Positions 34,388 through 64,000 of a DNA stretch of 64,000 nt are shown in pieces. Where the stretch lies: NCBI GenBank assembly GCA_026770025.1, contig JAMXDE010000022.1, positions 124,001 to 188,000 on the forward strand, in the 5' to 3' direction. Position 1 is the first letter of the stretch. Each line of letters begins with the position of its first letter. The translations under genes were made by a program, and so were the position numbers. The notes beneath the pieces are model-generated. The model saw only the letters and a program-made list of their open reading frames with translations. It searched no databases and had not been told where the DNA came from. The DNA comes from Craspedostauros australis. Its lineage: Eukaryota; Bacillariophyta; Bacillariophyceae; Mastogloiales; Achnanthaceae.

Positions 34388-34557
34388 TGACAATTCTCAC
34401 TGAATTCCTTACTTCTTACTCTTTTACTAATCGTACTAGTCAAATACTGGTCGGGGGTTGTCTTCGGACAACACTCACAAATAAACAACAAGAGCTCCGA
34501 CCAGGGCACGCAACAACAGGCCAATACGTCTTTCGTAGTTACTTGTACTGTTTGACA
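34388..34557 (+). repeat. 5' LTR of Copia element 1 (170 bp)
   Basis: Starts TGACAATTCTCACTG and ends TGTTTGACA. Compared with the 3' copy I count three differences, all transitions. It is short for an LTR. No convincing primer-binding site complementary to initiator tRNA-Met follows it. Confidence 0.95.
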
Positions 34558-39491: not shown

Positions 39492-42400
39492 CTAATCGCC
39501 TGGCTGGGCTGGTTGGACGTGCTGCTTGTACCGTAGCCAGCGACTCAGCGTGCCATGGGCAGCTGGTTCGCCGAGCAGGCGAGCCGCTTGCTCCAGCCAT
39601 ACAGCGACTTGCGACACTGACGCGCTTACTCCTGGGGCGGTGTCGACGATTCGTTGGCTGCTGGTCGGGGACTCCTCGAGGCGCTGCCGGATTGAAGCCA
39701 CGCGTGTTCGCAGCGCTTGCTCCATTTCGGCGTCGGCCGAGTCGTCCTGATGGAATAATGCGTCGTTACGCACCTGCCATTGCTCCCAAGCTATTTTCCA
39801 GATGCGTCGCACCAATTGGATGGACCACTTTTTGGCCGTTTTCCGTGTTTCCTGTTGCTGTAGAAAGGTCTCCTGCAAGGCGCACCACTCGATGGACAGC
39901 AAACCCTTCCGAAGGGCCATGCGCCCCACTGTTGCCTGGCTTTGAGTGGCAGATCGCATCCCCGCACTCATATCCGCCGGCTGCAGCAGCATTGTGCCGC
40001 TAACTTGGCTGCGGAGCGCTGAGATGATGGCTTGCGTGACTCCCGGGCTGGTGGGGTACCGCTGCATCCAACCCCGGATGTCCCTGACATGCCGGCTGGC
40101 CGCCTTAACCCTGACTGGATCTCTGCATTCCCAGAAGTGCGCGCTGCTCTCCGGTTCCCCACAATTGGGACACTTGTCGGAGTCGCGCAGGCCCCATTGC
40201 TTCATGCGCTGGCCTGTTGCTGCCTCCCCTGCCACGAGCTTGAAAGTGAGAATGCGCTTGGTGTGCTCAAGAGACCTGAGGCCTCCTGCAATTGCTTCCC
40301 AATGGACTTGATCCGCCTGGTCAACAACTTTCCGCGCAGTTAAGGCTGCGATCGCTGCTTCAGCGGTGGATTCTCCGAAGATGCTATCATACCGAATTGT
40401 TGTCAGCTTGCGTCGGCCGTGAATGGACACCCGCTCTCCGTGGATAGCACTGCCATAGACTCTTGCTTCCGGAAGAGACACGCGCGCCGAGCCCGCCAGT
40501 TTGTCTGCTTCAATATTGAGCTTAGCCCAGTCATCGAGGGTTGCCCATTCTGCTGCGTCATCCTGATGCCCTTTGACATGCTTCCCTGTTACCACGACTG
40601 GAAGACCCTGACTGAGGCTTCGAACTGCCCGTTGCAGATCCGCGTCGGTGGATCGCAGGGACAGATGCCATTCGCCGTCTAGCGCTTTCAGCGCACTTAA
40701 GTTGTCACACCCCAGAGTCATCGATCCCCGCGTCACATTGCATGCTTCGCAGATGACCTCGATGAATACTAGGACTCCGTAGATTCCAGCAAGCTCCGCC
40801 CGGTGCGACTGCATGACCTCATTCGTTGCTGGGGTCCTGTGGGTGAGCCATAGCTTAGTCTCGTCGCCCTGATGGCATGCGCGAATGACTGCGCCCGCTG
40901 CTCCACACCCGTCCGCCACGGATCCGTCGCTGCACGCCGTGAGGGTGCCGGACCGTAGCGAGTGGGCGATGGTATCGACCTTTCCCACCATGTCATGGAC
41001 ATGTATCGCCCATGATTTGGATGGCGGCATTGCTTCAAGGAGAGCATCGAGCTGAGTCACTGGAGAAGCGTCTGGTGGAATGCCTGGACCCGAGTTAACG
41101 ACCATCAGTCTTCCCTGGGATAGGTACCCGTCGACCACCTCCTGGCCTGAGTTGATAGCTCCTTCAGCAACCTCATATTGTCGCTGCCTCCGGCGCCTGG
41201 GCATCCTGCGAAAGTGTTGATCGGGTCGCAGAGAATGAGACAGCCGGTCCTCTTGAGCATTGCGAAACACCAAGGGCCTCATCGACGAGAACTCCCTCCA
41301 TCTTCCCAGAGGCCGCTCAAGCATGATGGCGCTTGTTCGAGATGCCGGGAAGCACTGGCTGATCGCCTGTCTCCACTGACGCCACTTCGCCGAACTGACA
41401 TCACCCATCGCTGGCCACGTCATGACCGATTGCCTGAGCTGCGTTGGTTCTGGGCCGAGCACGTTGGGGACCAGAGCATCACCTGTGGCATTTACGATGT
41501 CTGACAGCCAGAAAACCTGCTTCTTCTGCCTGCATAGGTTGACTGCCCGTAGCGTTGACTTGGGTAGCCCCAACTTCATCACTAGATCCATAACTGGAAC
41601 GTCGTATTGTCTCAGTGGTGTAACAATAGGTGTCTCGAATCGTATCTGGATGTCCGCCCCATGAGTTTCTCCCCACACCGACTTCATCCAGGACTCTTCG
41701 GCGAGCGGGCCCCACTTGTCGAAGTCCATCTCCATCACTCTGGGAGTGCCTACCTGGAGTGTGAGGATCTCAACTTGCGTTCGTAGCAGCCTTCCGGTGA
41801 GCGAGGGCGTCTGCCAGTGCCGAACGATTGCCTCTATGTGTCGGACTGTCTGCGTATGGTAGAGGTGCGGCACCCCAAGACCTAGACCTTGGGGCGCCCC
41901 GAATACCAGCGCTCTGGAGACGTTGCGCTGTATGCCAGACGCAGGTAGTGCAGCCTGGAGTATGGGCCGCATGATGCGCTCCGCCGCCGCCTTGGAGAAG
42001 GTGGAACTCAGAAGAGGATACTCGATCGTTTTCCATATAGTCGCCTTCATCGCGATCCACGCATGCACTCGCAGAAGTTTTCCTCGTCGCATTTTATCTG
42101 CCCATTGCTGTGCTTTCCCGACATAATATGCCTCATTGCTCTCCTGGTTGCCGTCGTGCCGGACCATGACCCCCAGCGCCTTCCGGGCCTGGTCGACATG
42201 CAGCCGCTGGAGCTGCGATTTATCGTTGCTGTCGGGCTGTCGGATGCTGATTTCGCCTGGTTGTTCCTCCACTGTTTTGTATCGCCAACGCTCTCCGTCC
42301 CAATGGAATGCCATTAGATACCAGTAGCTTTTCCTCGGTTCGAGAGCGCCGCCGGTTGCCCGGAGCATTCCCTCCCACGAATCCACCACTGCTTGGATCT

Positions 42401-45122: not shown

Positions 45123-47028
45123 TGGTTGCGCCCCCTTCCTTGCTTGAGTCGGGGGGAACTGAGCCGGCCGCCTGTAATTGGGCGCGCAGCGCTGCGATGA
45201 TGGAGTCTTTGCTGGCAATCTCGTTGGATTGTTCTTGCACTCTCTTACGATTGCGTTCCGCCTCCTGGTCTTTCCTTGCTTCTCTCATGACTGCCTCCAG
45301 TTCATTCTCTATTTCTTCTGCCTCCGTCTGTGAGTCTGGTTGCGTGTACCGTGACGATGCCATTGATTTGCCAAGCTCAGTTGTGAACGTGTAGACCGAT
45401 TCATCCTCCAGCCTTGGCTTCTTTCGCCTTGGCGAGGCCTCTTGATCGTCTTCCATCATGCCCATGCCGTCGATTTGCACTTCTCCAAAGCCTTCGTCGA
45501 GCAGAAAGTCCATCTCCAGTTCCATCTCGGCGTCAACGTAGTCTCTGCTGTCGTCTTTTTGCATGAGACAGCTCATTTCGACGATGTCATCTGAGAACCA
45601 CGTGTTGGTTGACGCGTTGATCTCTGTGGCACATCGGACAGCGATGGTGTGGATGATTCCAACTGCTTCCGGGAATCGTTCACCAAATGCGACGATGTGT
45701 ATGGCATCTTCTTTACCGTCCGCCATGTGAGTGGTGCTCACGTCGTGGATGAGTGGACATCCCTCTTTGGTCTGCTTTGCCAGGAACTGTCGCAGCGTGA
45801 TTTGTTTGGTCTCTGGATCTGTTTCATCGAGCGAGAAGTCTCCCTTGAGCTGTTCGTACTTAAGCTGTCGCACGTATCGCTGGTGTTTCTTGATCATGGC
45901 CTTCACTTTGGTGGCGGTCTTGGCTCCCATGACGGACGTTCCCGGTTTGGGCACGTAGCGGTAGTTCAGCCCCCCACGGTGCGCGTCTCTTTTGTTGAAG
46001 ATTTGTCCCAGCATTTTGGATGCCCGTCGAGCGTCTTTGACGTCTGCGTGGATGTGCAGCGCCATCCATGGCGCGTTGTACCAGCTTCCTCCGTTAGCTC
46101 TGTGCTCGTCTTGGACGTCCTCCTGGACTTTTCCGATGAATTTGACTCTACCTCCAACCTTGATCTTCGCTCTGCTTTCCTCCAGCAGTTGGTTGATGAT
46201 TTCGAGGGTTTGCTTCGCCTTCGTGAAGTTGCCTGAGTATGCCATGAATCCGATTTCGGTGATGTGCTCCGCGTCCCTTAGGTCTTGGACGTAGGCATAT
46301 TCTCCTTCGGTGTAGGATCCTTCCATCTCGTTGCTTCTGCTGGTGAAGATTTGCATGTCGACGTTGGAGGCCAGTAGAATCTGCATGTACACGTCCTCGC
46401 TCCTTGAGCTTGGATTCGCCTTTCCCACGTAGATTCTGAGGTCCTTCCATTGGGCTGGAACTCCCTCTGTTGTTGAGATGCATCCTTTCTTTTTGTTCTT
46501 CTTGTACCACGGGCGTATGACAAGACTCTTGTCCATTTCTTTGGCCTCCTCCCACCACTGTGCGAACCTTGCCTGGAAATCTCTGACCGGCGTGCGAGAC
46601 CCTTTCGGGATCTTCAAGCGCATTTCAAATCTTTCGTAGTGGCGCCGCTTGATGTTACCGATCTGCGTCTCCCTTGCCTCCACTGTCGTCCACCCTTGCT
46701 TTTTGGCGGCGTCCTCTCCAGATTCCCCAGATGCGTCTGGTTGGTCAGAAGTAGGATTGGAGCTTGGAAGTGCTGCTGCTGTCGGGGCTTTGACGGTTTT
46801 GGGTCGCTTGGATTTGCCCTCCTTGACTGTGGTTGTGAATGCCGTGAGGTTCGATTGGCGCAAGGGTCGCTTGGTGATGAGCGCCTCGAGGTCGTGACTG
46901 CTGTCGTCGCTATCTTCTTCCATGGGTTCCAATGCTGAGTCAACCTCCGGTGGGCCCAGCTCTTCTGGGTATTGGCTGCCCATGTAGTTGACTGCGGCTG
47001 CCCACATGATCGTCATCTGATTCGCCAT
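45115..47028 (-). CDS. LINE ORF1 protein, 637 aa
   Basis: ATG at 47028, TAA at 45117-45115. Residues 1-110 are acidic, then basic and low in complexity. Residues 120-480 look globular with repeated hydrophobic strands (RFEMRLKIPKG, DLRIYVGKAN, ALHIHADVKDAR, AIHIVAFGERF). From about 560 a charged coiled coil runs to near the end. LINE ORF1 proteins bind the element RNA and multimerise through coiled coils; the basic region and the coil fit that, but I see no RRM or CCHC motif that would prove it. The start lies 18 bp after the ORF0 stop. The frame is intact. Confidence 0.82.
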   Translation of the reverse strand: MANQMTIMWAAAVNYMGSQYPEELGPPEVDSALEPMEEDSDDSSHDLEALITKRPLRQSNLTAFTTTVKEGKSKRPKTVKAPTAAALPSSNPTSDQPDASGESGEDAAKKQGWTTVEARETQIGNIKRRHYERFEMRLKIPKGSRTPVRDFQARFAQWWEEAKEMDKSLVIRPWYKKNKKKGCISTTEGVPAQWKDLRIYVGKANPSSRSEDVYMQILLASNVDMQIFTSRSNEMEGSYTEGEYAYVQDLRDAEHITEIGFMAYSGNFTKAKQTLEIINQLLEESRAKIKVGGRVKFIGKVQEDVQDEHRANGGSWYNAPWMALHIHADVKDARRASKMLGQIFNKRDAHRGGLNYRYVPKPGTSVMGAKTATKVKAMIKKHQRYVRQLKYEQLKGDFSLDETDPETKQITLRQFLAKQTKEGCPLIHDVSTTHMADGKEDAIHIVAFGERFPEAVGIIHTIAVRCATEINASTNTWFSDDIVEMSCLMQKDDSRDYVDAEMELEMDFLLDEGFGEVQIDGMGMMEDDQEASPRRKKPRLEDESVYTFTTELGKSMASSRYTQPDSQTEAEEIENELEAVMREARKDQEAERNRKRVQEQSNEIASKDSIIAALRAQLQAAGSVPPDSSKEGGATNE

Positions 47029-48468: not shown

Positions 48469-48638
48469 TGACAATTCTCACTGAATTCCTTACTTCTTAC
48501 TCTTTTACTAATCGTACTAGTCAAATACTGGTCAGGGGTTGTCTTCGGACAACACTCACAAATAAACAACAAGAGCTCCGACCAGGGCACGCAACAACGG
48601 GCCAATACGTCTTCCGTAGTTACTTGTACTGTTTGACA
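48469..48638 (+). repeat. 3' LTR of Copia element 1 (170 bp)
   Basis: Same ends as the 5' copy. Its first three bases (TGA, 48469-48471) form the stop codon of pol, so coding sequence runs straight into the LTR. There is no clear polypurine tract upstream. Confidence 0.95.
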
Positions 48639-48643
48639 ACCAC

Positions 48644-49579
48644 CATGCTCCGCAATTGGCACAATAACCGAGGGGCAGGGGTTGCTTCGGCGACTAACAA
48701 TCCAATCAACCATAGATTCAATCAACCAACTGCTCCAGAGTTGATCTTCAAATGGAAGGAGGCCGCTCCCATGATGGGATTCGTTGGCGACAGCGCTGCG
48801 AGCGAAGCGGCTTTCGCACTATCATCATGATGGGCAGTGCCGATCGGCTTCGTCATAGGCCGTGCGTGCAGTCCTCTGTGCCTTCAACATGCCAGCACTG
48901 CCAGCACAAGAATCCCTTGGCCTGCACAGCCGCTGATCGCGAACACTCGAGTCAACTCAGACCGCACAAACAATTCTCGCACCACAACTGGTGCGTGACC
49001 ACATCAGCTCAATGGAACGTGGTTCGTTGTCGTCGTTTGGTGATCCGCATGAGAGCCCGCCAATTTATCGCTCTCACTATTGAATGCGTCATTCTGCAAC
49101 CAAGATAAGACGCATTTATACAGACCAATGGTGACACTATCGGAAACGCAGTGGCTTGCCGGTGGGTACCAGGCATGCTCAAATGGCTGGCCGCCACGCA
49201 TGGTTTCTGTCGTCTCCTTCAGGCGGGCCGAGGTCTTCATCAGAGCTCGACTCAAAACCGAATGTCGAGCATCCTCAACCGCATCCTTCACTTTCGCCCA
49301 GGAAACCAACGATTGCAGCAGGCATGGGAAGATATCGCCAAGGTGCCGCGATGAACGCGGAAGAAGAGAGCAAACGGGCGGCTCGGATGGTGAAGAATCC
49401 CGTCGGCACTACACTATTGTGGTCTCTGCGAACAATGGCGAAGCATCTTCTGCATCGCCACGAAACGAAAATGGTGAGACGGCACGCCGCGAAGTTTGTG
49501 AAACAGTATCTGACAGCGGCTCTATTGTGTTGTATACTCTACTCACTGGAAGGCAGTTCTATTCGTACTCCTGTTCCTC
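48644..49579. other. Right flank of Copia element 1, no resolved gene
   Basis: About 0.94 kb. Both strands have open frames over 49004-49730. The minus-strand one has a charged helical stretch (about 49100-49310) and the plus-strand one is Lys/Arg-rich near 49350-49500. They contradict each other, and neither has a clear start and end. The 3' UTR of the split secreted-protein gene should lie at the right edge. Confidence 0.4.
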
Positions 49580-50179
49580 TCAGAACAACATCACAATGGA
49601 TCCTAACGTGGACACAGCCGCCAATGAACCCAACTTCCACGCCAACGCACCATCTGCGCCAGACGCATCAGCCTCACCACCAACGACTTCACTGACATCT
49701 TCAGCAAGGAACTTGTCCAATGCCTTCTGAGCAAAGGAAGAGAGAGCACGCCCACCTCCTCCATTGCTGCCAGCATCATTGCAGTCCAACATGTCAGCCT
49801 CAAAGCCAGGACAGCTGCCGAAGTTGATGTTGTAGAACGCACCCCAACGGTTGGACTGCATCCCGAACAACGCATCCGGGTTCACCTCCAAGTTCTCATG
49901 AACGATGAAGTCGAAGCACAACGGCGTGAATCGTCCGAAACCGACATCACGGCCGATGTCGAAGCAGATGGTCTGCTTTCCGGTGAAGGTGATGAACTCG
50001 AAGTTATCACGAGGACGCGCGGAAGGGAAGACTTCGAGGTTTGTGTGGAGGCGATTCTTCGCTCCGACTCCCGTTTCGCAGAATGCGAGGAGTTCCTCCG
50101 ATGTCGTATGACATTCGGCATCGCCTTCGCAATACTCGAAGGTGGGCGCATCAGCGCTGTTGCTATTGCTGTTGCTGTT
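49580..50179 (-). pseudogene. 3' half of a secreted-protein gene split by Copia element 2
   Basis: The frame continues from the 5' half at 57559-57939 across the insertion, beginning with an Asn-Ser repeat that includes the duplicated GCTGTT (AACAGC in sense). It encodes 199 codons ending in TGA at 49582-49580. The body has six or more Cys (YCEGDAEC, FCETG, ICFD, LCFD, SCPG, LDCND), consistent with disulphides outside the cell. The C-terminus is a hydrophobic stretch (LGSLAAVSTLGSIVMLF) after a Gly/Ala/Ser-rich segment, the pattern of a GPI-attachment signal. Without the element the gene would encode about 324 residues. The family is not recognised. As the sequence stands, no single transcript from the gene's own promoter would reach this half without crossing 7.4 kb of retrotransposon. 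Confidence 0.82.
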
Positions 50180-50353
50180 TGTCAGGAATCGGGTGTTCTG
50201 AAACACCATATTGCCGCACCTCCCAAGAGTAAGGAGCCGAACGTGGGGATATTCTACATTACCGCAACTCCCACGTTTGATCATTGTGACACAGAAAAAT
50301 GTGAGCTGCACGTAACTCGCGGTGGAGAACGCCACGTGCCGAATACGAACCAT
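50180..50353 (-). other. LTR-borne antisense ATG in frame with the split host gene
   Basis: An ATG at 50353 on the minus strand of the 5' LTR opens a frame that crosses the LTR edge and continues in the host gene frame to 49580. It would join 58 LTR-coded residues to the C-terminal half of the host protein. Confidence 0.75.
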
Positions 50354-50995
50354 GCCTGACGTTCATGACTCCAATGCAGGAATGCGAATCACACGTGTAT
50401 GTCGCAGGGGGCGGGGATGTTGGAATCGTGACCAACATCACGATACGAACAACTACGGCCCCCACATCGCAACCAATGAGATAAGAGTACTGGGAACGAA
50501 CCTGGGAACGAACCTGGGAACGAACCTGGTATGAGGAACATCCAGGAAGCCGGTGAAGTGATCGGCGAAGAAACAATCAGAAACGATCGGAGTCGACCAG
50601 TGTTGATCGGAGATGATCGGAGATGTCTGATGATCAAGGAGCTGAGCAAGCTCCCAACCAAGGCGTTCCCGCAACGGATGAGAGATCGTGATCTGATCGA
50701 ATGAGCCGATCTGTGTCATGCCTACGACTCGGTGATGTCTAAGGCATCGAAACTATTGGCGGAGGACAACGTGCTAATGTGCACGAATATGGGGTACTTG
50801 GTGGTGCATGCATGTCCATGATGAATTTGCGATGAATGCAAGATGGATGTCTGCTAGACCAACAGGGGGACCCATGGCAATCTCAGGAGGAGATTGGACT
50901 TTGCATTCGAGAGCAATGAAGAGCTCACAGTTCAGAGAAGTAGATTCTAACAAACGATTAGTTCTCTACTATCACACCACCCCGGATTTCCAACA
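50180..50995 (+). repeat. 5' LTR of Copia element 2 (816 bp)
   Basis: Starts TGTCAGGAATCGGG and ends TTTCCAACA. It contains three tandem copies of a 12-bp unit (GGGAACGAACCT, about 50494-50529) and a GATCGGAGAT repeat near 50606-50626. Confidence 0.96.
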
Positions 50996-51073
50996 CGTTT
51001 CGAAACGTTACGATTGAAATCCTACGTTTCACCCCGCACCAACAAGCCATCATCCACCTTCATCATCATCATC

Positions 51074-54000
51074 ATGAGTACCTACGAGACCAAGTCCGAC
51101 AAGATCGTCTACTTTGACGGTAAAAAGGAGAACTGGAAGTTCTGGCACGCCAAGTTCCTCTGTCGCGCTAACCGTCGTGGTTACCGCGACATGCTCTTGA
51201 AGCCCTACTCCGATGTGAAGGTGACTGCTCCCTCCGCCGCAGCCGAGTCCCTGGTCGCAACCATCAAGCCTGATCCAGGCGCCAAACTCAAGGCGGGTAC
51301 CAAGTCTGGTACCAAACCAAGCGCTGCGGATCTAGCGGAGTACAAGGCAGCAATGGCAAGGTTCGCCTTCGAGGAACTGACCATGGCAATGAACCATGAT
51401 TCGAAGGAAGGCAAGATCGCCTTCGAGGCGGTGTGGGGATGCGAGGGCATGCTGAATGGAGGAGGCGATCCTCATGCAGCTTGGGTGGCCCTCGGTCGCA
51501 TCTACGAGCAGCGCACTGCGCCTATGAAGGCAAAGTTGCTGGCGGAGCTCAATGCGATGCGATTGAAGAAGGGAGAGAATCCGGATCTCTTCTTGACGGA
51601 CATGGAGGTCCTTCGCAACCGACTGATCGACCAGGAGGTGATCATCGATGCGGAGCAGTTCAACATGCTCGTGCTCAACGCACTCTGCCGCGAGTACGAG
51701 ATGGACGTGAAGCTGCTCGAACTCAAGTTCCACGGAAAGGAACGAGAGATGACTGTGGGCGACATCCGCGAAGCTGTGAGCCTAACCTACGACCGCCACC
51801 ATCTCAAACATGGTTATAAGCGCGCAGGCAACAGCAGCAACGAGGAGCTCGCTCTGTTCGGAGCTGGACAGTTCAAAGGAAACTGTCGCAACTGCGGTGC
51901 CTACGGGCACAAGAAGGCGGACTGTCGTGCGCCAGCCAAGGGAGGCAACAACAAGAAAGGCGGTGGGTCCAAGAAGAAGGGCTACAACGCCGATGCCAAG
52001 AGCGGATCCAAGAAAGGCGGATTCGACGGCAAGTGCAACTACTGTGGAAAGGCAGGGCACAAGATCATCCAATGCTTCAAGCTGAAGGCAGCAATGAAGG
52101 AAGCCGAGAGCGCCAATATGGCGATGGATGGCGACGACGCGATGGACGACATGGCACTCGTCATCGCAGACGGTGCATTCGTTGAGATCGACGATCTTGA
52201 TGAGATCGAACTCGAGGATGGACTCGAAGAGGATCTCTTCGAAATCATGGAGTCGTTTCCTTCAACCGTGAGAGCCGAATCGCCAATCAACGAAGGCATC
52301 CGTGACCTCATGAACGATGACCTGCTCGAATCAGACGAGAGCATCGGGGTCACTGAAGTCGCAATGCCAGGGGTCGATGTCAACAATGCGCCACCAGCGC
52401 AAGAAGAGGAAGCAACCGGCACTCGCATGAGCAGCGCCATTGACTACTTCCTACGTGACGAGATCGACCGCGTGTGCGAACGCAGCAGGATGGATGCATG
52501 GTGTCCAATCTGCCTCGCGCGTGGAGCGATGTATTCGTGGTGCACGGAGTGCACCGAATTCAACGTGTTCAAGATCCGAGCCCCATGGGCGTTCAGAAAG
52601 ATCCCGACGACCACCGAACCGGAAAGGATTCGCCGTCGCGCGATCCTGAGCCGATTCGACTCAGTGGAGGACGCCGTGAGGGTCTCTCTCTCCAACGTCT
52701 TGGAAGCCGTGCAGGTGCGAATCAATGGCGCCATCTTGTGCTACGACGTGAGGAGGGAATCCATTCGGGAGAGAGCCTACTGCTTGGGAACCCGAGAGCT
52801 CTACTACATGCTCACCCAAATTGGGTTTGATGGAGCATACGACATATCGCTCAAGATCGTGGTCATCAACGAGCTGCTCGAAGAGAAAGGACTACCACTA
52901 CTCCCCAAGCACCTCATCTTGAGGATGAGCCGCTTATGTACCCAACGCGTCTCATGGATGAGAGGCTGGGACGACACCGAAGTAAGAGACGGCTTGGAGT
53001 GCCCGGAACTCCCAAAGGTCAGACCAATGGCAGGAAGCCCGGAATACAAATTCGAGCTGATGGAACACTTCGAACAAGCAAGGTTCGGACACGAAATGGC
53101 CATGGTGATCGAAGATCACGATTCGAGTGAGAGCAACCGCGAGCTGGTTGCATCAGACCAACATGAAGCTAACACATGGTTGGGGGATACCGGCGCGTCT
53201 TGCCACTTGACTAACAACGATGAGGGCATGACTAATGTGCGCCTCTCGAACTTTTCTGTGAAGGTGGGAAGCGGAAAATTCCTCCGCGCCACCAAGGTCG
53301 GTGATCTACGCATGCGAGTGATGCAGAAGGACGGCAAGAGTGCCATCATCATCCTGAAGGGAGTGCGTTACGTGCCTAAGCTCTGGGTCAACCTGTTGAG
53401 CATCGGCAAGGCGCTCCATAATGGATTCAACATCAGTAACAAGGGCGTGATCATTGCACTGGATAAGAATGGGCAGCGCATCCAATTCGATCGGATCATG
53501 GCAACTCACAGCGGATTCGTGCTCGGTGTGAACATGATACCTGCCCCCAAGAGCGAAGAGATGGCGAATATCGGGCTCGACACAAAGAAGCCCAAGGATG
53601 TGAATAAACTCCATAAAATGCTAGGCCACGTTGACTCTTACACGATCTCCAGGACGGCGAGACAATATGGATGGAATGTCACTGGGACTCTTAATCCATG
53701 CGAGGACTGCGCGATCGGAAAGGCGAAGCAAAAACGCCTGACCAAAACTCTCCAACTACGAGCGAAGAAGGTCGGAGAACGACTCTTCATGGATACTTCA
53801 AGTGTCCAAGCAACGAGCTTCGGACATGGGAAGTACTGGTTACTGGTCATCGACGACTACAGTGACTACTGCTGGAGCTACTTCGTTAAAGAAAAGAGCG
53901 AAGTCGGTCCCAAACTACTATCCTTGTTGAAGTGGCTATCAGGCAATCAACAAGTGACAGTGAAGAATGTCAGATGTGACAATGCCGGAGAGAACTACAG

Positions 54001-56704
54001 CGCAGAGGCCCTGCTACTAAGAGCAGGCTTCGCCCCGTCCTTCGAGTACACCGCTGCTTCGACTCCTCAACAGAATGGAAGAGTTGAACGGAAGTTCGCG
54101 GTTCTCTATGGTAAGGTCAGGTCAATGCTGAACCAGGCACACCTACCGAGACAGCTGCGCGGCAAACTATGGGCAGAGGCAGCAAGGAACGCAACGCAGA
54201 TCGAGAACATCATCGAGACTAAGTCGAGAGATCCTGCGTGCCTGCTACTCAATGGACAGACCCCAACCTACGCGAAAGGATTGCGTATCTTCGGGGAGAT
54301 CGGAATGGTCTACATCGGCAGTCGCGCAATCAAAGCGAAACTGGATGACAGGTCCAAGCCAGCCATGTTCGTCGGTTACGGACAGTCTCATGCGAATGGC
54401 GTATACCGCATGATGAATCTGGCAACCACGAGAATCCTAATCACCAGAGACGTGACATGGATGAATCAGTCGTACGGGCAATTCAAAGGTGTTGAGAATG
54501 CCAACAGAACACAAATGGTGGATCTGGAAGACGACGACTTCAATGCCGGAGCAGCACTCCGCAATACGAAGGTTACTTGGGAGAATGACACGAGTATCGC
54601 AAGAGAAGCGAAGGCCGTATCATCTGATCGAAGCAGAGAGCCCGGAACCGACTACAAAGGTATCGCAGGCTATGCATCGAAGCAAGATGAACTGCTACCT
54701 GCCCAAGGAGACGATCCATCGGACGATGAAGACGACGATGAATCCGGAAGGGGCGACACACGAGTGACTCGAAGACAAGCCGCCGAAGGCAGAGAGATCG
54801 AGCAACCCCCAGCAAGACCTGTGGCAAAGATGTCAAGGATGCTACGGGGTTTGGTCCCGCACAACAATCCACCAGGATATGAATCCGACTCAGAATCAAG
54901 CAGTGGAGAGGATGAACCAGCTGAGACAGCTGAGACAATCCATGCAACCACGGGCGAACGAGACTTCCATTCGAACATATCCATGTTCAATCGAGACGTG
55001 GCGAGTCTAATGATCGACACCACAGAAGGGAGAATGAGACTGGATGAATTCATTGCAGCGAACCAACGAGTCGAGAGAGGGGATTGGAACGAGACATCCG
55101 AGCACGCATACACGGCTATGATGCTGGACCCAACCACCTTCGAGGAATGCTGGGATCATGCAGATCCAGCGAAGCGGAGGAAATGGCGGGAGGCCATCAA
55201 TAAGGAGTTCTACGACATGACGAGACGAGGAGTCTGGCAGAAGATCAAGAAGAACAAGATGCCGAGGGATCGGCGATGTGTGAAGACGAAATGGGTCTTC
55301 AAAGAGAAGAGGAATGGAGTCTTTCGCGCCAGGTTGGTTGCCTGTGGATACTCGCAGATTGCTGGAGTGGATTTTTCCGCTCATCATGCGCCCGTTATCC
55401 ACGATGCAACGTACCGAGTGATGCTGACCATGAAGATGTTGTTGAAGACAGACAGCATCATCATCGACTTCGAAACCGCCTTCCTGCACGGAGACCTCGA
55501 GGAAGAGATCTACATGCAATGCCCCAAGGGAATGGAGCATGAACCGGACGAATGCCTGCTGCTGAAGAAGACCATCTTCGGGTTGGTCCAGAGCGCAAGG
55601 CAATGGAACAAGAAGCTTGTGGACATCCTGATCAAACTTGGCTTCCGGCAGAGCAAGGTGGACCCATGCCTGCTAATTCGGAATCGGGAAGGGAATCTCG
55701 TCCTCATCGGGACGTACGTCGATGATTGCCTGTGCATCGGAAGCACCCTCGAACTGAAGCGACTGGTGAAGGACATCAAGCGCGAACGATTCGGCATCAA
55801 GGTCGAGGATGGACTCGAAGACTACTTGAGTTGCCGGATCGAATTCAACAAGAGCGAAACCAACTGCTGGGTGAACCAGCCACACATCATCAAGAACATC
55901 ACGGATACATTCAAGAGCGACGTGACGAAGCTTCAACGATACGGAACCCCAGGCACACCAGGTCAAGGGATCCAGAGGAACAGTGAAGCGCCCAAGGTCG
56001 ACAAGGATCGACACAGCAGATACCGCAGTGGAGTGGGTATGCTACTATACCTGGTGAAACACTCAAGACCAGATATCGCGAATGCAGTCCGAGAGCTTAC
56101 TAAGGTGTTGGATGGACCAACGACCACAGCATACAAGGAGATGCTGAGAGTGATGAAGTTCGTGTCGGACACGAGAGAATACGGATTGAGGATGGAACCC
56201 AAGCCGTTGAACAACAACCCATGGAAGATCGTGGTGTACACCGACAGCGAGTTCGCTGGAGACAAGGACAACCGCATCAGTGTTGGAGGACATCTGGTCC
56301 TGCTGCAAGGAGTGCCTATCATCTGGAGATCGAAGGCGCAACGCAGCGTGACACTGAGCTCGACCGAGGCCGAGTATGTCGCACTGTCAGAAGCTGGAAA
56401 GGAGATCCGCTTTTTGACTCAACTGATGGAAGACATCGGATTGAAGATGGAGAGACCTGCAGATGTGATGGTCGACAACGTGGGGGCGATCTTCATCGCC
56501 ACCAATCCATCGACATCAGCGAGAACGAGACACATCGATATACGCAACCACTTCATCAGAGAGCTGATTGCTAACAAGGAGGCGAGAGCTCGATTCGTGA
56601 AGTCGGAAGATAACATCTCCGACGGATTCACGAAGAACACTAAGAAGGAGATCTACGATCGGCACAAGGGGAGCATCATTCAGCCCAGATCAGCATTGGA
56701 CTGA
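51074..56704 (+). CDS. Gag-pol polyprotein of Copia element 2, 1876 aa, intact
   Basis: The ATG at 51074 is chosen; the frame is open 20 codons upstream without an ATG. Gag domain at about residues 1-250, then two CCHC knuckles near 271 (CRNCGAYGHKKADC) and 321 (CNYCGKAGHKIIQC). An unusual region of about 380 residues follows, containing CPICLARGAMYSWCTEC near 476. Protease DTGAS has Asp705. Then comes the pre-integrase HHCC region (LGHV...CEDC). The integrase has Asp near 907, Asp in RCDNAGEN and Glu in GRVERK. The reverse transcriptase has YVDD at 1548-1551. RNase H has YTDSEF near 1723, SSTEAEY and VDN. All catalytic residues I can check are present. The single frame without a frameshift is a common Copia arrangement. 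The stop lies 38 bp before the 3' LTR. Confidence 0.96.
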   Translation: MSTYETKSDKIVYFDGKKENWKFWHAKFLCRANRRGYRDMLLKPYSDVKVTAPSAAAESLVATIKPDPGAKLKAGTKSGTKPSAADLAEYKAAMARFAFEELTMAMNHDSKEGKIAFEAVWGCEGMLNGGGDPHAAWVALGRIYEQRTAPMKAKLLAELNAMRLKKGENPDLFLTDMEVLRNRLIDQEVIIDAEQFNMLVLNALCREYEMDVKLLELKFHGKEREMTVGDIREAVSLTYDRHHLKHGYKRAGNSSNEELALFGAGQFKGNCRNCGAYGHKKADCRAPAKGGNNKKGGGSKKKGYNADAKSGSKKGGFDGKCNYCGKAGHKIIQCFKLKAAMKEAESANMAMDGDDAMDDMALVIADGAFVEIDDLDEIELEDGLEEDLFEIMESFPSTVRAESPINEGIRDLMNDDLLESDESIGVTEVAMPGVDVNNAPPAQEEEATGTRMSSAIDYFLRDEIDRVCERSRMDAWCPICLARGAMYSWCTECTEFNVFKIRAPWAFRKIPTTTEPERIRRRAILSRFDSVEDAVRVSLSNVLEAVQVRINGAILCYDVRRESIRERAYCLGTRELYYMLTQIGFDGAYDISLKIVVINELLEEKGLPLLPKHLILRMSRLCTQRVSWMRGWDDTEVRDGLECPELPKVRPMAGSPEYKFELMEHFEQARFGHEMAMVIEDHDSSESNRELVASDQHEANTWLGDTGASCHLTNNDEGMTNVRLSNFSVKVGSGKFLRATKVGDLRMRVMQKDGKSAIIILKGVRYVPKLWVNLLSIGKALHNGFNISNKGVIIALDKNGQRIQFDRIMATHSGFVLGVNMIPAPKSEEMANIGLDTKKPKDVNKLHKMLGHVDSYTISRTARQYGWNVTGTLNPCEDCAIGKAKQKRLTKTLQLRAKKVGERLFMDTSSVQATSFGHGKYWLLVIDDYSDYCWSYFVKEKSEVGPKLLSLLKWLSGNQQVTVKNVRCDNAGENYSAEALLLRAGFAPSFEYTAASTPQQNGRVERKFAVLYGKVRSMLNQAHLPRQLRGKLWAEAARNATQIENIIETKSRDPACLLLNGQTPTYAKGLRIFGEIGMVYIGSRAIKAKLDDRSKPAMFVGYGQSHANGVYRMMNLATTRILITRDVTWMNQSYGQFKGVENANRTQMVDLEDDDFNAGAALRNTKVTWENDTSIAREAKAVSSDRSREPGTDYKGIAGYASKQDELLPAQGDDPSDDEDDDESGRGDTRVTRRQAAEGREIEQPPARPVAKMSRMLRGLVPHNNPPGYESDSESSSGEDEPAETAETIHATTGERDFHSNISMFNRDVASLMIDTTEGRMRLDEFIAANQRVERGDWNETSEHAYTAMMLDPTTFEECWDHADPAKRRKWREAINKEFYDMTRRGVWQKIKKNKMPRDRRCVKTKWVFKEKRNGVFRARLVACGYSQIAGVDFSAHHAPVIHDATYRVMLTMKMLLKTDSIIIDFETAFLHGDLEEEIYMQCPKGMEHEPDECLLLKKTIFGLVQSARQWNKKLVDILIKLGFRQSKVDPCLLIRNREGNLVLIGTYVDDCLCIGSTLELKRLVKDIKRERFGIKVEDGLEDYLSCRIEFNKSETNCWVNQPHIIKNITDTFKSDVTKLQRYGTPGTPGQGIQRNSEAPKVDKDRHSRYRSGVGMLLYLVKHSRPDIANAVRELTKVLDGPTTTAYKEMLRVMKFVSDTREYGLRMEPKPLNNNPWKIVVYTDSEFAGDKDNRISVGGHLVLLQGVPIIWRSKAQRSVTLSSTEAEYVALSEAGKEIRFLTQLMEDIGLKMERPADVMVDNVGAIFIATNPSTSARTRHIDIRNHFIRELIANKEARARFVKSEDNISDGFTKNTKKEIYDRHKGSIIQPRSALD

Positions 56705-56742
56705 ACATGGTGGATGATATGGTTGGAGCGGCAATGGAAGGG

Positions 56743-57558
56743 TGTCAGGAATCGGGTGTTCTGAAACACCATATTGCCGCACCTCCCAAGAGTAAGGAGC
56801 CGAACGTGGGGATATTCTACATTACCGCAACTCCCACGTTTGATCATTGTGACACAGAAAAATGTGAGCTGCACGTAACTCGCGGTGGAGAACGCCACGT
56901 GCCGAATACGAACCATGCCTGACGTTCATGACTCCAATGCAGGAATGCGAATCACACGTGTATGTCGCAGGGGGCGGGGATGTTGGAATCGTGACCAACA
57001 TCACGATACGAGCAACTACGGCCCCCACGTCGCAACCAATGAGATAAGAGTACTGGGAACGAACCTGGGAACGAACCTGGGAACGAACCTGGTATGAGGA
57101 ACATCCAGGAAGCCGGTGAAGTGATCGGCGAAGAAACAATCAGAAACGATCGGAGTCGACCAGTGTTGATCGGAGATGATCGGAGATGTCTGATGATCAA
57201 GGAGCTGAGCGAGCTCCCAACCAAGGCGTTCCCGCAACGGATGAGAGATCGTGATCTGATCGAATGAGCCGATCTGTGTCATGCCTACGACTCGGTGATG
57301 TCTAAGGCATCGAAACTATTGGCGGAGGACAACGTGCTAATGTGCACGAATATGGGGTACTCGGTGGTGCATGCATGTCCATGATGAATTTGCGATGAAT
57401 GCAAGATGGATGTCTGCTAGACCAACAGGGGGACCCATGGCAATCTCAGGAGGAGATTGGACTTTGCAATCGAGAGCAATGAAGAGCTCACAGTTCAGAG
57501 AAGTAGATTCTAACAAACGATTAGTTCTCTACTATCACACCACCCCGGATTTCCAACA
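56743..57558 (+). repeat. 3' LTR of Copia element 2 (816 bp)
   Basis: Same length and ends as the 5' copy. The five differences seen are A/G, A/G, A/G, T/C and T/A (5' versus 3'). Confidence 0.96.
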
Positions 57559-57939
57559 GCTGTTACTGCTGCTACTGCTAGAACCGGATCCCGAGCCTGA
57601 TCCTGATCCAGAGCCAGATCCAAAGACGTTGCCGTTTCCTGTTGGGATGGACGCTCCTGCGAATGTGAGGAGGAAGTCGTTGCAGTCCAGGAGAACTCTG
57701 TCGATTTGGTAGTCGACGAAGGCTTGAGCATTGGCTCTGGTGAATGGTGTTGGGTTGGTTTGTTGGAGAGCCCTTTCTTGGTGATTGCCATCGATGGGAT
57801 CAACAGGATCGATGGGATCGATAGGATCACGGTGATTGACCGTGATGGCTTGGGCCTTGGAGCTGAATGCGGTGAGAAGCACAGTGAGCAAGAGGGTTGC
57901 TGTCATGGCTTTGTTGTTGGTGATGTTGATGAAAGACAT
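57559..57939 (-). pseudogene. 5' half of the secreted-protein gene split by Copia element 2
   Basis: ATG at 57939. Residues 1-31 are a signal peptide with a short polar start and an MTATLLLTVLLTAFSSKAQA core. A DPIDPID repeat follows, then a conserved-looking segment with LDCNDF, and a Gly-Ser and poly-Ser tract that reaches the insertion point. The frame stays open into the LTR and stops there (57535). The sense strand reads into the 3' half at 50179 in the same frame. The insertion landed in the Ser/Asn linker between the two halves. Confidence 0.82.
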
Positions 57940-59137
57940 GTTGGTGTTCGTGATTGTGATTGTGATTGTGGTTGTGGTTGTGGTTGGTTTGGTTGTATGT
58001 CCTCGTGTTGGTTTGGTTTGGTTTGGTTTAGTTTTGATTAGATCGGCTGATCGTTTTTATGATCAGATCTGGAGTAACATCCATCAAGATCGATGGTGTT
58101 GATGGTGTTGATGGTGTTGATAGATTGATGGCGAGAAAGCATGGGCAACCAGTGGTTGGTACAATGGGTTGGGTGCATGATCGTGTGCATGTAGGTATAG
58201 TCATTCTCGTGCCTGTGCTCCTGGTCATACGATCCATGCTGCACTTGTACGATCTACTCTACGTGGATGGAGTACTGTATCCTGCGGTGATACGGGAGCC
58301 TCCTATGATGATGATGTGTGATGGTGTGTGGTGTGTGGTATGTGAGTACTCCACTCTGGTACATTCCTCTGCACTCTGCCCGTGTAGGTCGATGCCAAGT
58401 ATTGACATGGCTCTGTCCATGTCTACATCTACCCATGGCTCTCTCTCTCTCTCTCGTGGATGGCACAAGGTGCTGAAGACATAGTCATCATACCCTCCAG
58501 AGAGTCATCATACCATGCAATACTCCGTTGCATGCTGCGAGTTCTCAGTTCTCTCTCTGTGTTGGTACACATCGACATTGCTCCTTGTACCCCACCCAAG
58601 TCGGACATATCTCGGCTTCGTCGATGTCAGATGCGAGAAGCGGGGAGAAGGGAGGAGAAAAGGGAGGAGAAAGAGGAAGATGAGAAGGAGGAAGGGGAGA
58701 AAGAAGTGCTCGTGAGATTAGATTTAGATTAGATTGGACTTGGAAGAGATTTGGACGAGACTTAGAGAAGAGGAGAGCAAAGTCCCTCTCTGTGGCATGA
58801 CGAAGCAACACATTGCGCCCCGATGGATGCACAGCGTTGCCGATGAAAGCTTGTACGCCGTCATGGTGGCACATCCTTTGCTTTGATGCTTGCTTTGATG
58901 CTTTCTTTGGTGTTTGCTTTCGTCTTGCTTCCTCTCTTTGGGAAAGCCATTGTGTATCAAATCTCCGATTAGAGTCACCTCATCCGAAAGGAAGACGACA
59001 ATACTCGTGGTTCGTATCACAGGTTGGATGAAAGTTGTGCAAAGGTCACAAACGAACCATTGACCATCGATATTTCTGGATGTGAAGAGTGGAGGTGTTT
59101 TCTCATACTCCACGTGTACGAGTTGCTCGTATGTAGC
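57940..59137. other. Intergenic with several simple repeats
   Basis: Promoter side of the split secreted-protein gene. It contains TGTGATTG/TGGTTG repeats (about 57951-58030), a GTGTTGATG run (about 58094-58122), a CT run (about 58440-58456) and an AG-rich tract (about 58630-58710). No supported gene. Confidence 0.5.
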
Positions 59138-59160
59138 ATACTATCCCTTCATGACCCAGG
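59138..59160 (+). repeat. Left terminal inverted repeat of the piggyBac-type element
   Basis: ATACTATCCCTTCATGACCC then AGG, an exact inverse of the right repeat. Confidence 0.9.
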
Positions 59161-59522
59161 GCCTATAGTGAATCCAAATAGCAAAAAATTTCACGGATTC
59201 TCCATTTTGACGTCGACGTTTACGTGTAACATATCATTTTCTTCATACCTGAAGAAAGCTTGAGAGATGGGCGATCCAGCCATGTGTCGCTTTCGATGGG
59301 GTTGTTAGGATGCTTGTGTCGCAATCAGAGCCTGAACTACTCGTGAATCGTTTTTTCGCCAGCGGGACTGTCGCAAAAATAAATCGGCGAGCCCGTCCCT
59401 CCCAATTTCGGTCTCTCCATCCCATTTTTGTCGTCACATCTCCCCTTCCCATCACATCACAAAATCAAAAGATCACAACATCACATCATCACATCATCAC
59501 ATCACCACACTGATCATCCATC

Positions 59523-62027
59523 ATGGTCAAGTTCACCCGTGCCAAGCGCAAGGAGCCACCTTCCACACCAACCAGCAGCCAGCCGTCCTTCTTCGCAGAG
59601 CCTGATCTCCCCTACACCAGCTCTCGTCCGCATGTGGTTTTCCTCAATGATTCTCCAAAGTTGAATCGGTCTCCTCCATGCAAATGGCTGCCTCTGGATT
59701 CAACCACCCTCAGGGGCCTCGACGACAACCCGCCAACAACCAATCATTCATCAACCACCATGCACACCAATGGCAAGAGCAGCAACATCGTTCCACCTGC
59801 GGTGGATGGCAAAATTGATGCCAGCATCATCATTCCACCTTCAGTGGATCGCAAAATTGATGCCGGCATCGTCATACTACCTGCAGTGGATGGAACGAGC
59901 ATCGTCAGCAATCCGTCTGGCATTGCTGGGCACATGGCCACACGCATGTCAACGCGTATGGCCACGCAGATGGACACAGCATCCAATCAGAGCAACACTG
60001 CATGCATCAAAACTGATGCCAGCCCATCAAATGAAACCATCACAGCTGACTTTGCAATCACAGCTGACCCATCTGAAGGATGCATTGGGAACCAGGAAAG
60101 CACCGGCACCCGTGCAACAGTTGATGGCAGTCAGTACACCATCAACATCAACAGCAACCATCGAAGCAACTACACACCACTCCCTGTGGGCAATCACAAG
60201 CCCATGTTCCGTGGAATACCAAATGTTGCCACAACAATCGATAGCATCTTGGAAATCTTCTTCCCTGAGACTCTTGTGGAGAGCATCCAGCTTCACACCA
60301 ACAATCATATTCGAAACAGTCGATCCAATGCTGAACCGGTGACAGTATGTGAACTGTACATATTCCTTGCAATGTACTTCTACATGGGCTTCTTCGGCGC
60401 CCTTGCAAAGAGAGACTACTGGAGAGCTGCTTCCATTTCCATTCCTTCTCACGAGTTCATGACATACATGTCAAGAGCACGATACCAAGTCATTTGGAAT
60501 CACATCCATCTCACTGCAATGGCTGAACACTCGGATGGCCAGTCAGATTCTTCAATTGACAGCAGCAATACATCTGCAGACGATATGGATGATGATGTCT
60601 CTCCAACAGATCAGAGCCGCGGTACCAGATCATCATCGCAGACGGTCGCAGCTTCTGGAACGTCAGCTGATGCCTCAACATCCTCGTCAACGCTATCTGA
60701 CCTCTCTGACGATGTTGCCCCACATGGGTCTGGGAGCAGGGCAGCCTGCAAACCTGCACCACCACCACCTTCAATGCCCCCTGTGATCATTTCCGATCGC
60801 TCATGGTATGCCAAGGTCCAACTACTGCTGGACCATACCAACCGGGTCTCTCAGAAGGTGTGCGCAAAGCCAGGGTTTGCCTGCTCCATCGATGAGATGA
60901 TGGTACGCTTCAAAGGCCAATCGAGCCAAACCCATCGCATGAAGCAAAAGCCCATCAAAGAAGGATACAAGTTCTTTGCGCTGTGCTGCTCTGCATCTGG
61001 GTTCATGTACCATATCCTTCCTGCTGGAAGACTGGATAAGACAACGAAGATCAACAACACAGTGCAAGAGTTGATGGCTGTTCTTGATCCAAATTTGGGG
61101 CACGTCGTGGCGATGGATAATCTTTTCACAACAAAGACTGTGATTGAGAACTCCAGGAGAATGGGGCTGGGAATCGTTGGCACTGTTTGGAATCGTCGTG
61201 GCTTCCCTCCCAAGGAGCTGAAAGATATTGAGGATGGACGCTTCAATTCGCTGTATCTGTGGACACAATCTGATGATCACGTCATCACAAGATGGGTTGA
61301 CAACAATGTTGTCTTGATGGTCAGCACCATCCACTACGGAAATGAGACAGTGCAGAAGGATCGCCACAAGCCAAGGGAGACCCAGACGAACAAGTCTCAC
61401 CACAAACAAGTGTGGGGGAGCAATTGGAACGCGAGGATTCACATACCGAAGATGATTGACGACTACAACCACTGGATGGGAGGCGTGGACAAGTGCAATC
61501 AGTTCATCGCCTACTACAGACCGAATCTCCGATGCCGACGAGTGTGGATGCCCCTGATGTTTCACCTGCTGGACATCCTGAGGGTGAATGCCTGGATCGC
61601 CCACAACATGCTGGTCGAAAAGGAGCATCAATTGGAGCACAAGGCATTTGGTTTGCAGATGATTGAACGGCTTGTTGCGAAAGGTGTCATGTATGAATCG
61701 AGGTCAACAAGGGCAAGGGCACGGGCAAGGGCAACCACACCATCAAGGCCAGTGCCAAGATCGATCCAAACAGCATCCAGAATGAGCAGAAAGTCACCAA
61801 CGCTGAGTTTGAAGAGACTGACAGGAGAGTATTGCAACCACAAGGAGCTCATCGTGAGAGAAGGGTGCCAGCGGACCTGCACATACTGTGCGTTCTTGAA
61901 GGCGAAAGCAAAGAAAGACGGAAAGGCAGGGGTGAAACCGAAAAGAGTGAGAAGGATGTGCAACATCTGTGATGTCTACATCTGCAAGCAACACTGGGCT
62001 ACATACCATGGTCAGGATCAGGGCTGA
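59523..62027 (+). CDS. piggyBac-type transposase (DDE_Tnp_1_7) with N-terminal low-complexity region and C-terminal Cys-rich finger, 834 aa
   Basis: ATG at 59523 in a good context, TGA at 62025-62027. Residues 1-230 are Ser/Thr/Pro-rich with a repeated PAVDGKIDAS-like unit. The transposase core begins near residue 235 (FRGIPN...IDSILEIFFPE). The three catalytic Asp are in SIDEMM (Asp457), AMDNLF (Asp532) and GGVDKCNQ (Asp656). A Ser-rich insertion (about 340-420) splits the early part of the catalytic region. After a basic RARARARA stretch, the C-terminus has a Cys/His module (CNH...C...CTYCAF...CNICDVYICKQHW) like the cross-brace finger of piggyBac proteins that binds the terminal repeats. 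The frame is intact and the element has both ends, so it may be mobile; domestication is less likely because the repeats are perfect. Confidence 0.92.
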   Translation: MVKFTRAKRKEPPSTPTSSQPSFFAEPDLPYTSSRPHVVFLNDSPKLNRSPPCKWLPLDSTTLRGLDDNPPTTNHSSTTMHTNGKSSNIVPPAVDGKIDASIIIPPSVDRKIDAGIVILPAVDGTSIVSNPSGIAGHMATRMSTRMATQMDTASNQSNTACIKTDASPSNETITADFAITADPSEGCIGNQESTGTRATVDGSQYTININSNHRSNYTPLPVGNHKPMFRGIPNVATTIDSILEIFFPETLVESIQLHTNNHIRNSRSNAEPVTVCELYIFLAMYFYMGFFGALAKRDYWRAASISIPSHEFMTYMSRARYQVIWNHIHLTAMAEHSDGQSDSSIDSSNTSADDMDDDVSPTDQSRGTRSSSQTVAASGTSADASTSSSTLSDLSDDVAPHGSGSRAACKPAPPPPSMPPVIISDRSWYAKVQLLLDHTNRVSQKVCAKPGFACSIDEMMVRFKGQSSQTHRMKQKPIKEGYKFFALCCSASGFMYHILPAGRLDKTTKINNTVQELMAVLDPNLGHVVAMDNLFTTKTVIENSRRMGLGIVGTVWNRRGFPPKELKDIEDGRFNSLYLWTQSDDHVITRWVDNNVVLMVSTIHYGNETVQKDRHKPRETQTNKSHHKQVWGSNWNARIHIPKMIDDYNHWMGGVDKCNQFIAYYRPNLRCRRVWMPLMFHLLDILRVNAWIAHNMLVEKEHQLEHKAFGLQMIERLVAKGVMYESRSTRARARARATTPSRPVPRSIQTASRMSRKSPTLSLKRLTGEYCNHKELIVREGCQRTCTYCAFLKAKAKKDGKAGVKPKRVRRMCNICDVYICKQHWATYHGQDQG

Positions 62028-62176
62028 CGAATTTTTTTACTAGTAAAACCATGTGAATAAGAAGAATGGTTCCGAACTAGATTAAAAAAGAAAGCTTTCT
62101 GTCGTAGCTCCTGGTAGGGAAACCTCGTTCAAAATTTAACACGGGCCGAAAAAAAGGATATAATGAATGCATTGGG

Positions 62177-62199
62177 CCTGGGTCATGAAGGGATAGTAT
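62177..62199 (-). repeat. Right terminal inverted repeat of the piggyBac-type element
   Basis: Reverse complement of 59138-59160 over all 23 bases. Confidence 0.9.
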
Positions 62200-64000
62200 A
62201 CGTGTGTATCGTTGTATAGTATGTCACTTCTCGTGTTCACAACTTCAAAGGAGTGACCCGAATCACAACCAACCCCATCAACTGATCATCGATTGCATCA
62301 GGGTCCAGTACCCGTAAGCGCATGAGGCTTATCGAAGGGTGAGCCAATCCACCAACTCGCCATCCGCAACCAAGATGTGATACCGTCATTTGAGAGTGAC
62401 CAGGACGAAACCGATGTTGAGATTTATCGGCATGAACTGTGACGAGGTGTCATTCCGACCCAACAAATGGCGAAGCAATCAACGGAACGGGAATGGAGGA
62501 ATGGAGGAGCATTCCAATCCAAACAAGAGAAAGGAAGGATGGATGGATGGATGGAAGGAGGTCATTCAATCCAAAACGTAACATCGATCGAACACAACGA
62601 AACAAAGATGACATTCGCAATGTGGTACCAAACCACACCATACCATAGTCGTACCATAGTCGTACTATACCATGCCTCTCGAATCGCAAATGGTTCCATT
62701 CATTTCTCGATACGAGCAGGTCGTACTTGCTGCTCCTTCCACTCTACGTTCTGCTCTCTGCTCTGGTTGTCTCCATGCCTCTTCAATAGTTGTATGTTGC
62801 TATTTCCACCTCGTGCTATACTTGTGATGCCGATGGTCATTTCCAATATTGGCCCAACATGAAGCCCGAAAGGAACAGACCTTCTGCAAGCGATATCTAT
62901 ATCTACGTTCCATGTTAACCGCATCAGATAATGGCCGGCTAACTTCAGATGCTTAATGGGAGACCTCTGCCCCAGCATCTATCAATACATAGTAGTATCT
63001 ACAACCAGCTTGCGGTCGCCATGTACATGACCGCCCCAACACTCTGAGGCTGTTGTCTCCAACCGTCGAGTGAAGTCGAAGTGGAGCCGAAGTGAAGGCA
63101 ATGCGAGCCGAGATCTCCAAGTGCTCGTATGCTTTCAAATGTCACCATCTGGAGGTGCCTGGACGGACAGATCAAGCTGATGATGTGGATTAGAATGCCA
63201 CTGAGTGTTCGTAAAGTCGAGTCGACTTGAGTCGAAGAGGAGCTGGATCGCAAGAGGCCGACAAGTCCAGCATGCGATCGTATTCCATACCCGTCTTCCG
63301 AGGACAAGTTGGGTGTTGCACCGAACCTTGGCTCCGGAGCGGCTTGGATGGAATGGTTGTGTATTCGCATGGTACTCCTGTTGGAGTACTATACCCTTGC
63401 AGAGCAGTTGGATTGACCTCGGTGTGCGTGCCAACTTCAACTCCAACGCCAATGCTAACGTCAACGTCAACTGTAACGGCAGCGTCGACGGCAACGCCAG
63501 GCACAGTGTCGGCAGCGAGCAAGTCCATTCATGGGCATCTGTCCATTCAAGCTTTTCTTGTGCCTAACTTGCACAATGTAGAATGAATCGCACACGCCTA
63601 AAACGGGACTGGGTTGAGGGAGTGGGAGTCCCGTGCGTACCAACACGTTGACGGAAACAACAACAGCACGATGCAGAACTGGACATGCTGCGGCTAGCAT
63701 CGTGAATATCCATAATGATTTTGGCCTGGTACTGGCCTACGTGGCTTGTCTCCCCAGGCAAATTGGAGGTGCAATTTGTCTCCACAGGCAAATTGGGGTC
63801 CATTTGTCTCCACAGACAAACTGCGACTCAACGGACTAGCCCAAATACGCTTTACGAGAAGCCGTTTTTTTTCAAACCCTTTTTCGCTGGCCATCTCGAC
63901 TCACGACATGCCTCATGTGATAAATTTATAATTATCGTTGCAGTTGTGGGAATTGAACAAACAATGATCATGCGTCGTGCGTCACCCTCCTTGTCGTGTC
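62200..64000. other. Right-hand intergenic region, no gene seen
   Basis: 1.8 kb without a frame of coding character. Holds a GGAT run (about 62537-62554) and the tandem repeat at 63746-63830. Confidence 0.45.
63746..63830. repeat. Three tandem units of about 28 bp
   Basis: Three imperfect copies built around TTGTCTCCACAGGCAAATTG. On the plus strand each reads LSPQANW-like, but no gene is supported. Confidence 0.75.

Follow-up and report, generated by a model that had tools for sequence, protein, structure and literature searches.

Does a minus-strand gene for a secreted protein stand here in two halves around a retrotransposon, and what became of it? We examined this question in a window of 64,000 nucleotides from Craspedostauros australis (bases 124001–188000 of contig C20; the assembly comprises 74.8 Mb in 90 contigs), taking as a starting point a preliminary description that had proposed a split gene, joined in frame by removal of a young, intact Copia element.

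The two gene pieces and the element between them

The 5′ piece of the gene (57565–57939, minus strand, 125 codons) contains the start codon, a leader-like hydrophobic stretch near the start (AMTATLLLTVLLTAF), the first conserved cysteine and a Gly/Ser tract. The 3′ piece (49580–50179, minus strand, 199 codons plus stop) begins in an Asn/Ser tract and continues through seven conserved cysteines to a hydrophobic, GPI-like tail and the stop codon; scored by hydrophobicity only, the hydrophobic 15-mers fall at residues 11–25 of the 5′ piece and 185–199 of the 3′ piece. With the hexamer GCTGTT counted once, the 125 codons and the 199 codons plus stop share one frame, which bears out the in-frame join of the preliminary description. 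Its portrayal of the left half as Cys-rich, and of the break as lying inside an Asn/Ser repeat, likewise held up: seven cysteines were found, along with a hydrophobic C-terminus that may be GPI-like, and the element sits in an Asn/Ser-coding linker. Both halves are free of stops and frameshifts. Structure prediction of the 3′ piece alone gave no usable model (mean pLDDT of 37), and a sigma-70 promoter scan upstream was set aside as inapplicable to a eukaryote.

Between the pieces, and oriented opposite to the host gene, lies a Ty1/Copia-type element of 7,379 bp (50180–57558, plus strand), with an open internal frame and flanked by copies of GCTGTT at 50174–50179 (left) and 57559–57564 (right). 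Its long terminal repeats (LTRs; 5′ LTR, 50180–50995, of the form TG...CA; 3′ LTR, 56743–57558; both on the plus strand) measure 816 bp each and differ at exactly five positions—the same count as in the preliminary description. The internal frame runs uninterrupted through 1,902 codons, starting at 50996 and reaching a stop at 56702–56704, and the element still looks intact, as had been claimed. Within it, an uninterrupted Gag-Pol frame of 1,876 aa (51074–56704, plus strand) matched, in a Pfam profile search, Retrotran_gag_2, zf-CCHC, Pol_BBD, SH3_retrovirus and RVT_2, in the order of Copia elements; the last three matches lie above the Pfam cut-off, and those to Retrotran_gag_2 and zf-CCHC both fall below the curated cut-off. 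The reverse transcriptase is of the RVT_2 type (PF07727, E 1.4e-38, 133 bits against a cut-off of 31.6). SH3_retrovirus (residues 1068–1131), which we take to be the C-terminal part of integrase, precedes RVT_2 (residues 1395–1612), and its position indicates that integrase is encoded before reverse transcriptase, as expected of Ty1/Copia; no Pfam model for the integrase core was listed at E 0.01 for the polyprotein. The direct TG...CA repeats and the 6-bp target duplication also agree with a Ty1/Copia assignment.

The element resembles the diatom Copia elements described by Maumus et al. (PMC2806351) in several respects: the CoDi elements share its Copia-type polyprotein, diatom Copia elements have similarly well-matched LTRs, and the 5,182–8,062 bp given for diatom retroelements encompasses its length. 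The target duplication, in contrast, is of 6 bp here and TTCC for Blackbeard, and the present element lies inside coding sequence, whereas none of the SSAP sequences from that study lay inside a gene (PMC2806351).

Several further features of the window and assembly were recorded. A 170-bp direct repeat, 98% identical between its copies (34388–34557 and 48469–48638, 14 kb apart), flanks a minus-strand frame (39492–45218) with a reverse transcriptase of the RVT_1 rather than the RVT_2 type. On contig C62 (19001–31000; L034, L035), many short inserts interrupt the 18S gene; in the scanned stretch, their apparent 5′ ends show 14 GTAAGT/GTACGT motifs, and their 3′ ends are, by eye, mostly CAG; one group I intron was called in the LSU gene. 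Spliceosomal and group I introns have been published for diatom rDNA, with eleven 18S inserts in Chaetoceros diversus 2 (PMC6306197). The silicon transporter family (PF03842, best E 4e-249) yielded 88 matches genome-wide (L087–L094 and others), 32 of which cover at least 480 of the 513 profile positions and 28 of these 32 without a stop, a count that may include allelic duplicates; across 14 control genomes, the profile found a match in one, below the cut-off. Three to five silicon transporter copies are described as typical in a published account (PMC10700740). The large transporter family and an 18S of diatom-like appearance both fit a diatom genome.

Uninterrupted relatives and an eight-cysteine family

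Separate DNA searches with each flank of the element led to the same two places on contig C55. Copy A (C55:305356–306354, plus strand) has a stop-to-stop frame of 366 codons, or 333 aa from the first ATG, and copy B (C55:315381–316373, minus strand) one of 364 codons, or 331 aa; in both, the gene halves are adjacent and the site is free of the element. The C20 locus is 90–92% identical to these paralogs in DNA, over about 1.6 kb and 0.66 kb. At the protein level, the 5′ piece shows 91–98% identity with both paralogs, the value varying with the aligner and the range compared, and the 3′ piece matches A at 87–88% and B at 87%. Between themselves, A and B are 98% identical, and B likewise carries eight cysteines. 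The two copies form an inverted pair (within C55:296001–323000) with arms of about 3.6 kb that are 94% identical. Two RAL motifs (HQERAL and GGGGRAL) are the same in the broken copy, A and B; they may be reminiscent of the RXL motif at which silica-associated proteins of diatoms are cleaved.

More divergent members on contigs C15, C68 and C30 also cover both halves: C15 with one match, C68 with two, of which one is strong and the other weak, and C30 in the alignment alone, the search having matched just its 3′ half. Homologues spanning the junction, whose absence had been named in the preliminary description as the result that would count against it, are thus present in A, B, C15, C68 and C30. 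Since uninterrupted paralogs and divergent members alike bridge the two halves, these were originally one gene, and the notion that they were never so—two unrelated frames that stand beside an element—has nothing in its favour, is refuted by the five relatives and retains practically no probability. The minus-strand gene in two halves, as first described, is accordingly what the pieces at 57565–57939 and 49580–50179 represent.

Alignment of four uninterrupted frames (A, C15, C68 and C30) revealed eight invariant cysteines; in the broken copy, the element separates the first of these, carried by the 5′ piece, from the other seven, carried by the 3′ piece. C15, C68 and C30 either lack the Gly/Ser/Asn tract that took the element or have a much shorter one. 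By this alignment, the element landed in a subfamily-specific linker within one conserved eight-cysteine unit, not between two domains. The match at C15:366578 is partial, covering part of the 3′ half, that at C55:319541 is decayed, with three stops, and the remaining matches are weak. Searches with the host family against Pfam gave no significant match (best Serglycin, E 0.004, below the cut-off), and those against the PDB gave weak matches only (best E 0.0021, over the Gly/Ser tract, and best E 0.12 in the other search). Pattern matches in viral contigs (76) and prokaryote contigs (48) yielded no confirmed relative.

The target duplication and the age of the insertion

GCTGTT-like units follow one another at the insertion site itself—GCTGTTGCTGTT matches the window at four places, two of which overlap—and a chance repeat therefore had to be excluded. 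A sister set was drawn from 42 listed LTR matches, two of which are the LTRs of this element; 37 of the 40 others were fetched, and the remaining three, partial or more diverged, were left out. These matches are a sample, as 40 of 358 first-look candidates were scored. Identical 6-bp repeats were found in the outer flanks of nine of the ten other LTR pairs, that is, of all nine with host flanks (L040/L041 among them). The tenth pair (L054/L055) belongs to a tandem arrangement, the outermost LTRs of which (L055 and L070) share ATCGAT. Solo LTRs with host sequence on both sides displayed an identical 6-bp repeat in 10 of 11 cases, L058 being the exception; L060, L067, L069, L071 and L072, each with a partner or end missing, were not counted. 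A 6-bp target duplication is the rule in this Copia family, which places the flanking GCTGTT repeat beyond chance.

At the sites of the five LTR differences, the other 37 LTRs carry the base of the 3′ LTR in all cases at three sites and in 35 of 37 at two; all five changes thus appear to have occurred in the 5′ LTR. G:C to A:T changes make up four of the five, and three fall at CpG; methylation decay would leave such a pattern, and part of the 5′ LTR divergence may have arisen in this way. Poisson limits of 1.62 and 11.67 were used for the age of the LTR pair. CpG methylation of the Blackbeard element is given as a preliminary result by Maumus et al. (PMC2806351), and a GC-to-AT bias is reported by Krasovec et al. 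(PMC6604790). At the rate reported there for Phaeodactylum (4.77e-10 per site and generation; PMC6604790), five differences in 816 positions correspond to about 6 million generations, or 2–15 million with the Poisson limits; a raised mutation rate at CpG would make the insertion younger than ~6 million generations.

The preliminary description had called the event young, and this holds only in part. The insertion is young beside the divergence of the paralogs (dS 0.05–0.16), but not within its own family, where this LTR pair is the most diverged of the 11 measured: among the other ten, three pairs have no difference, six have one and the tandem pair has four, over 828–829 positions. Five differences exceed the sister mean of 1.0 with P 0.003, a value that allows neither for uncertainty in the mean nor for sampling.

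The broken copy and its duplicated block

Taken together, we conclude with high confidence that one of three close copies of a putative secreted-protein gene was split by a Ty1/Copia-type integration with a 6-bp GCTGTT duplication. The retrotransposon integrated antisense to the gene, into the Asn/Ser-coding linker, and duplicated its 6-bp target GCTGTT; the interrupted copy would then have stopped making the full protein, with the C55 copies probably covering its function. From its original start, the 5′ piece reads into a product of 134 residues that ends seven codons into the LTR and lacks seven of the eight conserved cysteines as well as the tail; the 3′ piece, for its part, is left with neither the original start nor the leader.

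An ATG in the antisense LTR (50353) opens a 257-codon frame that runs in phase into the 3′ piece. Together with the leader-like stretch retained by the 134-residue reading, this frame lends something to the idea that the pieces are now separate genes, one for a short secreted Ser/Gly-rich peptide and the other for a C-terminal product started in the LTR; such a partition, however, would divide the eight-cysteine unit one versus seven, and we regard it as very unlikely. Slightly less probable again, and likewise very unlikely, is the reading that the element is spliced out as a very long intron, through minus-strand sites within the LTRs or next to them, with protein of nearly full length still being made. 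In its favour, both halves are still stop-free and, by eye, the antisense 5′ LTR contains a TTTCAG whose end is 18 nt from the junction, with GT dinucleotides shortly ahead of the other junction; yet, also by eye, pairing the GTs nearest the 5′ junction (phase 1) with the TTTCAG acceptor (phase 0) would shift the frame, and an intron of 7.3 kb would be exceptional for a diatom. Returning to disruption by the element, we infer from the sequence of the pieces that the broken copy no longer yields the full protein.

How long the copy was maintained can be gauged from its substitutions. Against A and B, its dN/dS is 0.23–0.38, compared with 0.15–0.20 between A and B, on small counts of 4–24 changes per class. 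These values, combined with the lack of stops and frameshifts, suggest constraint on the broken copy until recently, and some relaxation could have predated the insertion, dN/dS being above the A–B value. Because the C55 copies probably cover its function, the loss may be nearly neutral.

The locus shares a duplicated block with copy A (49521–63711), interrupted by the Copia and a piggyBac-like element, and, from DNA comparison, with copy B (49530–63469). We considered whether A and B might be the other haplotype of this locus and rejected this idea, given their placement together on another contig, a DNA identity of 90–92% and homology to C55 that ends at window positions 49521 and 63711 (within the 27 kb of C55 read). 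The empty site observed belongs to a paralog, and, by eye, its Ser/Asn tract is 9 nt shorter than the two flanks of the broken copy less one GCTGTT. No empty allele was found in the assembly, where flank searches show the locus once and have A and B as their next matches. Maumus et al. (PMC2806351) describe diatom insertions that affect one haplotype and apparently leave the other intact. Among the papers listed in a search for coding-sequence disruptions in diatoms, none was clearly on point, judged by titles and the opening of abstracts.

The piggyBac-like element (59145–62192) lies upstream of the split gene, and neither C55 paralog has it. Its product, 834 residues long, contains a transposase domain (PF13843, E 1.3e-46) that we take to represent the piggyBac-type transposase family, and the element has a 69% match to another part of C55. 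Both of its ends begin CCCTTCATGACCCAGG. Both ends were read in three copies, namely this one, L074 and L075, and in each of them TAT precedes and ATA follows the element; the 3′-end sequences of L074 and L075 are not the same. The empty site of this element is seen in A and suggests a 2-bp duplication (AT or TA), where TTAA is expected of piggyBac. Paralog B has an extra C at this site, which could be an excision footprint, and also differs at nearby bases.

In kind, the event is an ordinary gene loss, cleanly documented. More tentatively, and with rather more doubt than belief, we picture a loss allele that arose recently and may still be segregating, in a diatom family, as yet undescribed, of secreted proteins with eight cysteines, in which the inverted C55 pair keeps the function and two different transposons have inserted in the block of the third copy. 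The broken copy offers a roughly datable retrotransposon interruption with close uninterrupted paralogs for comparison, and the Copia insertion a marker for typing strains by its presence or absence. Moreover, the analysis points to a putatively secreted eight-cysteine family without a significant Pfam or PDB match.
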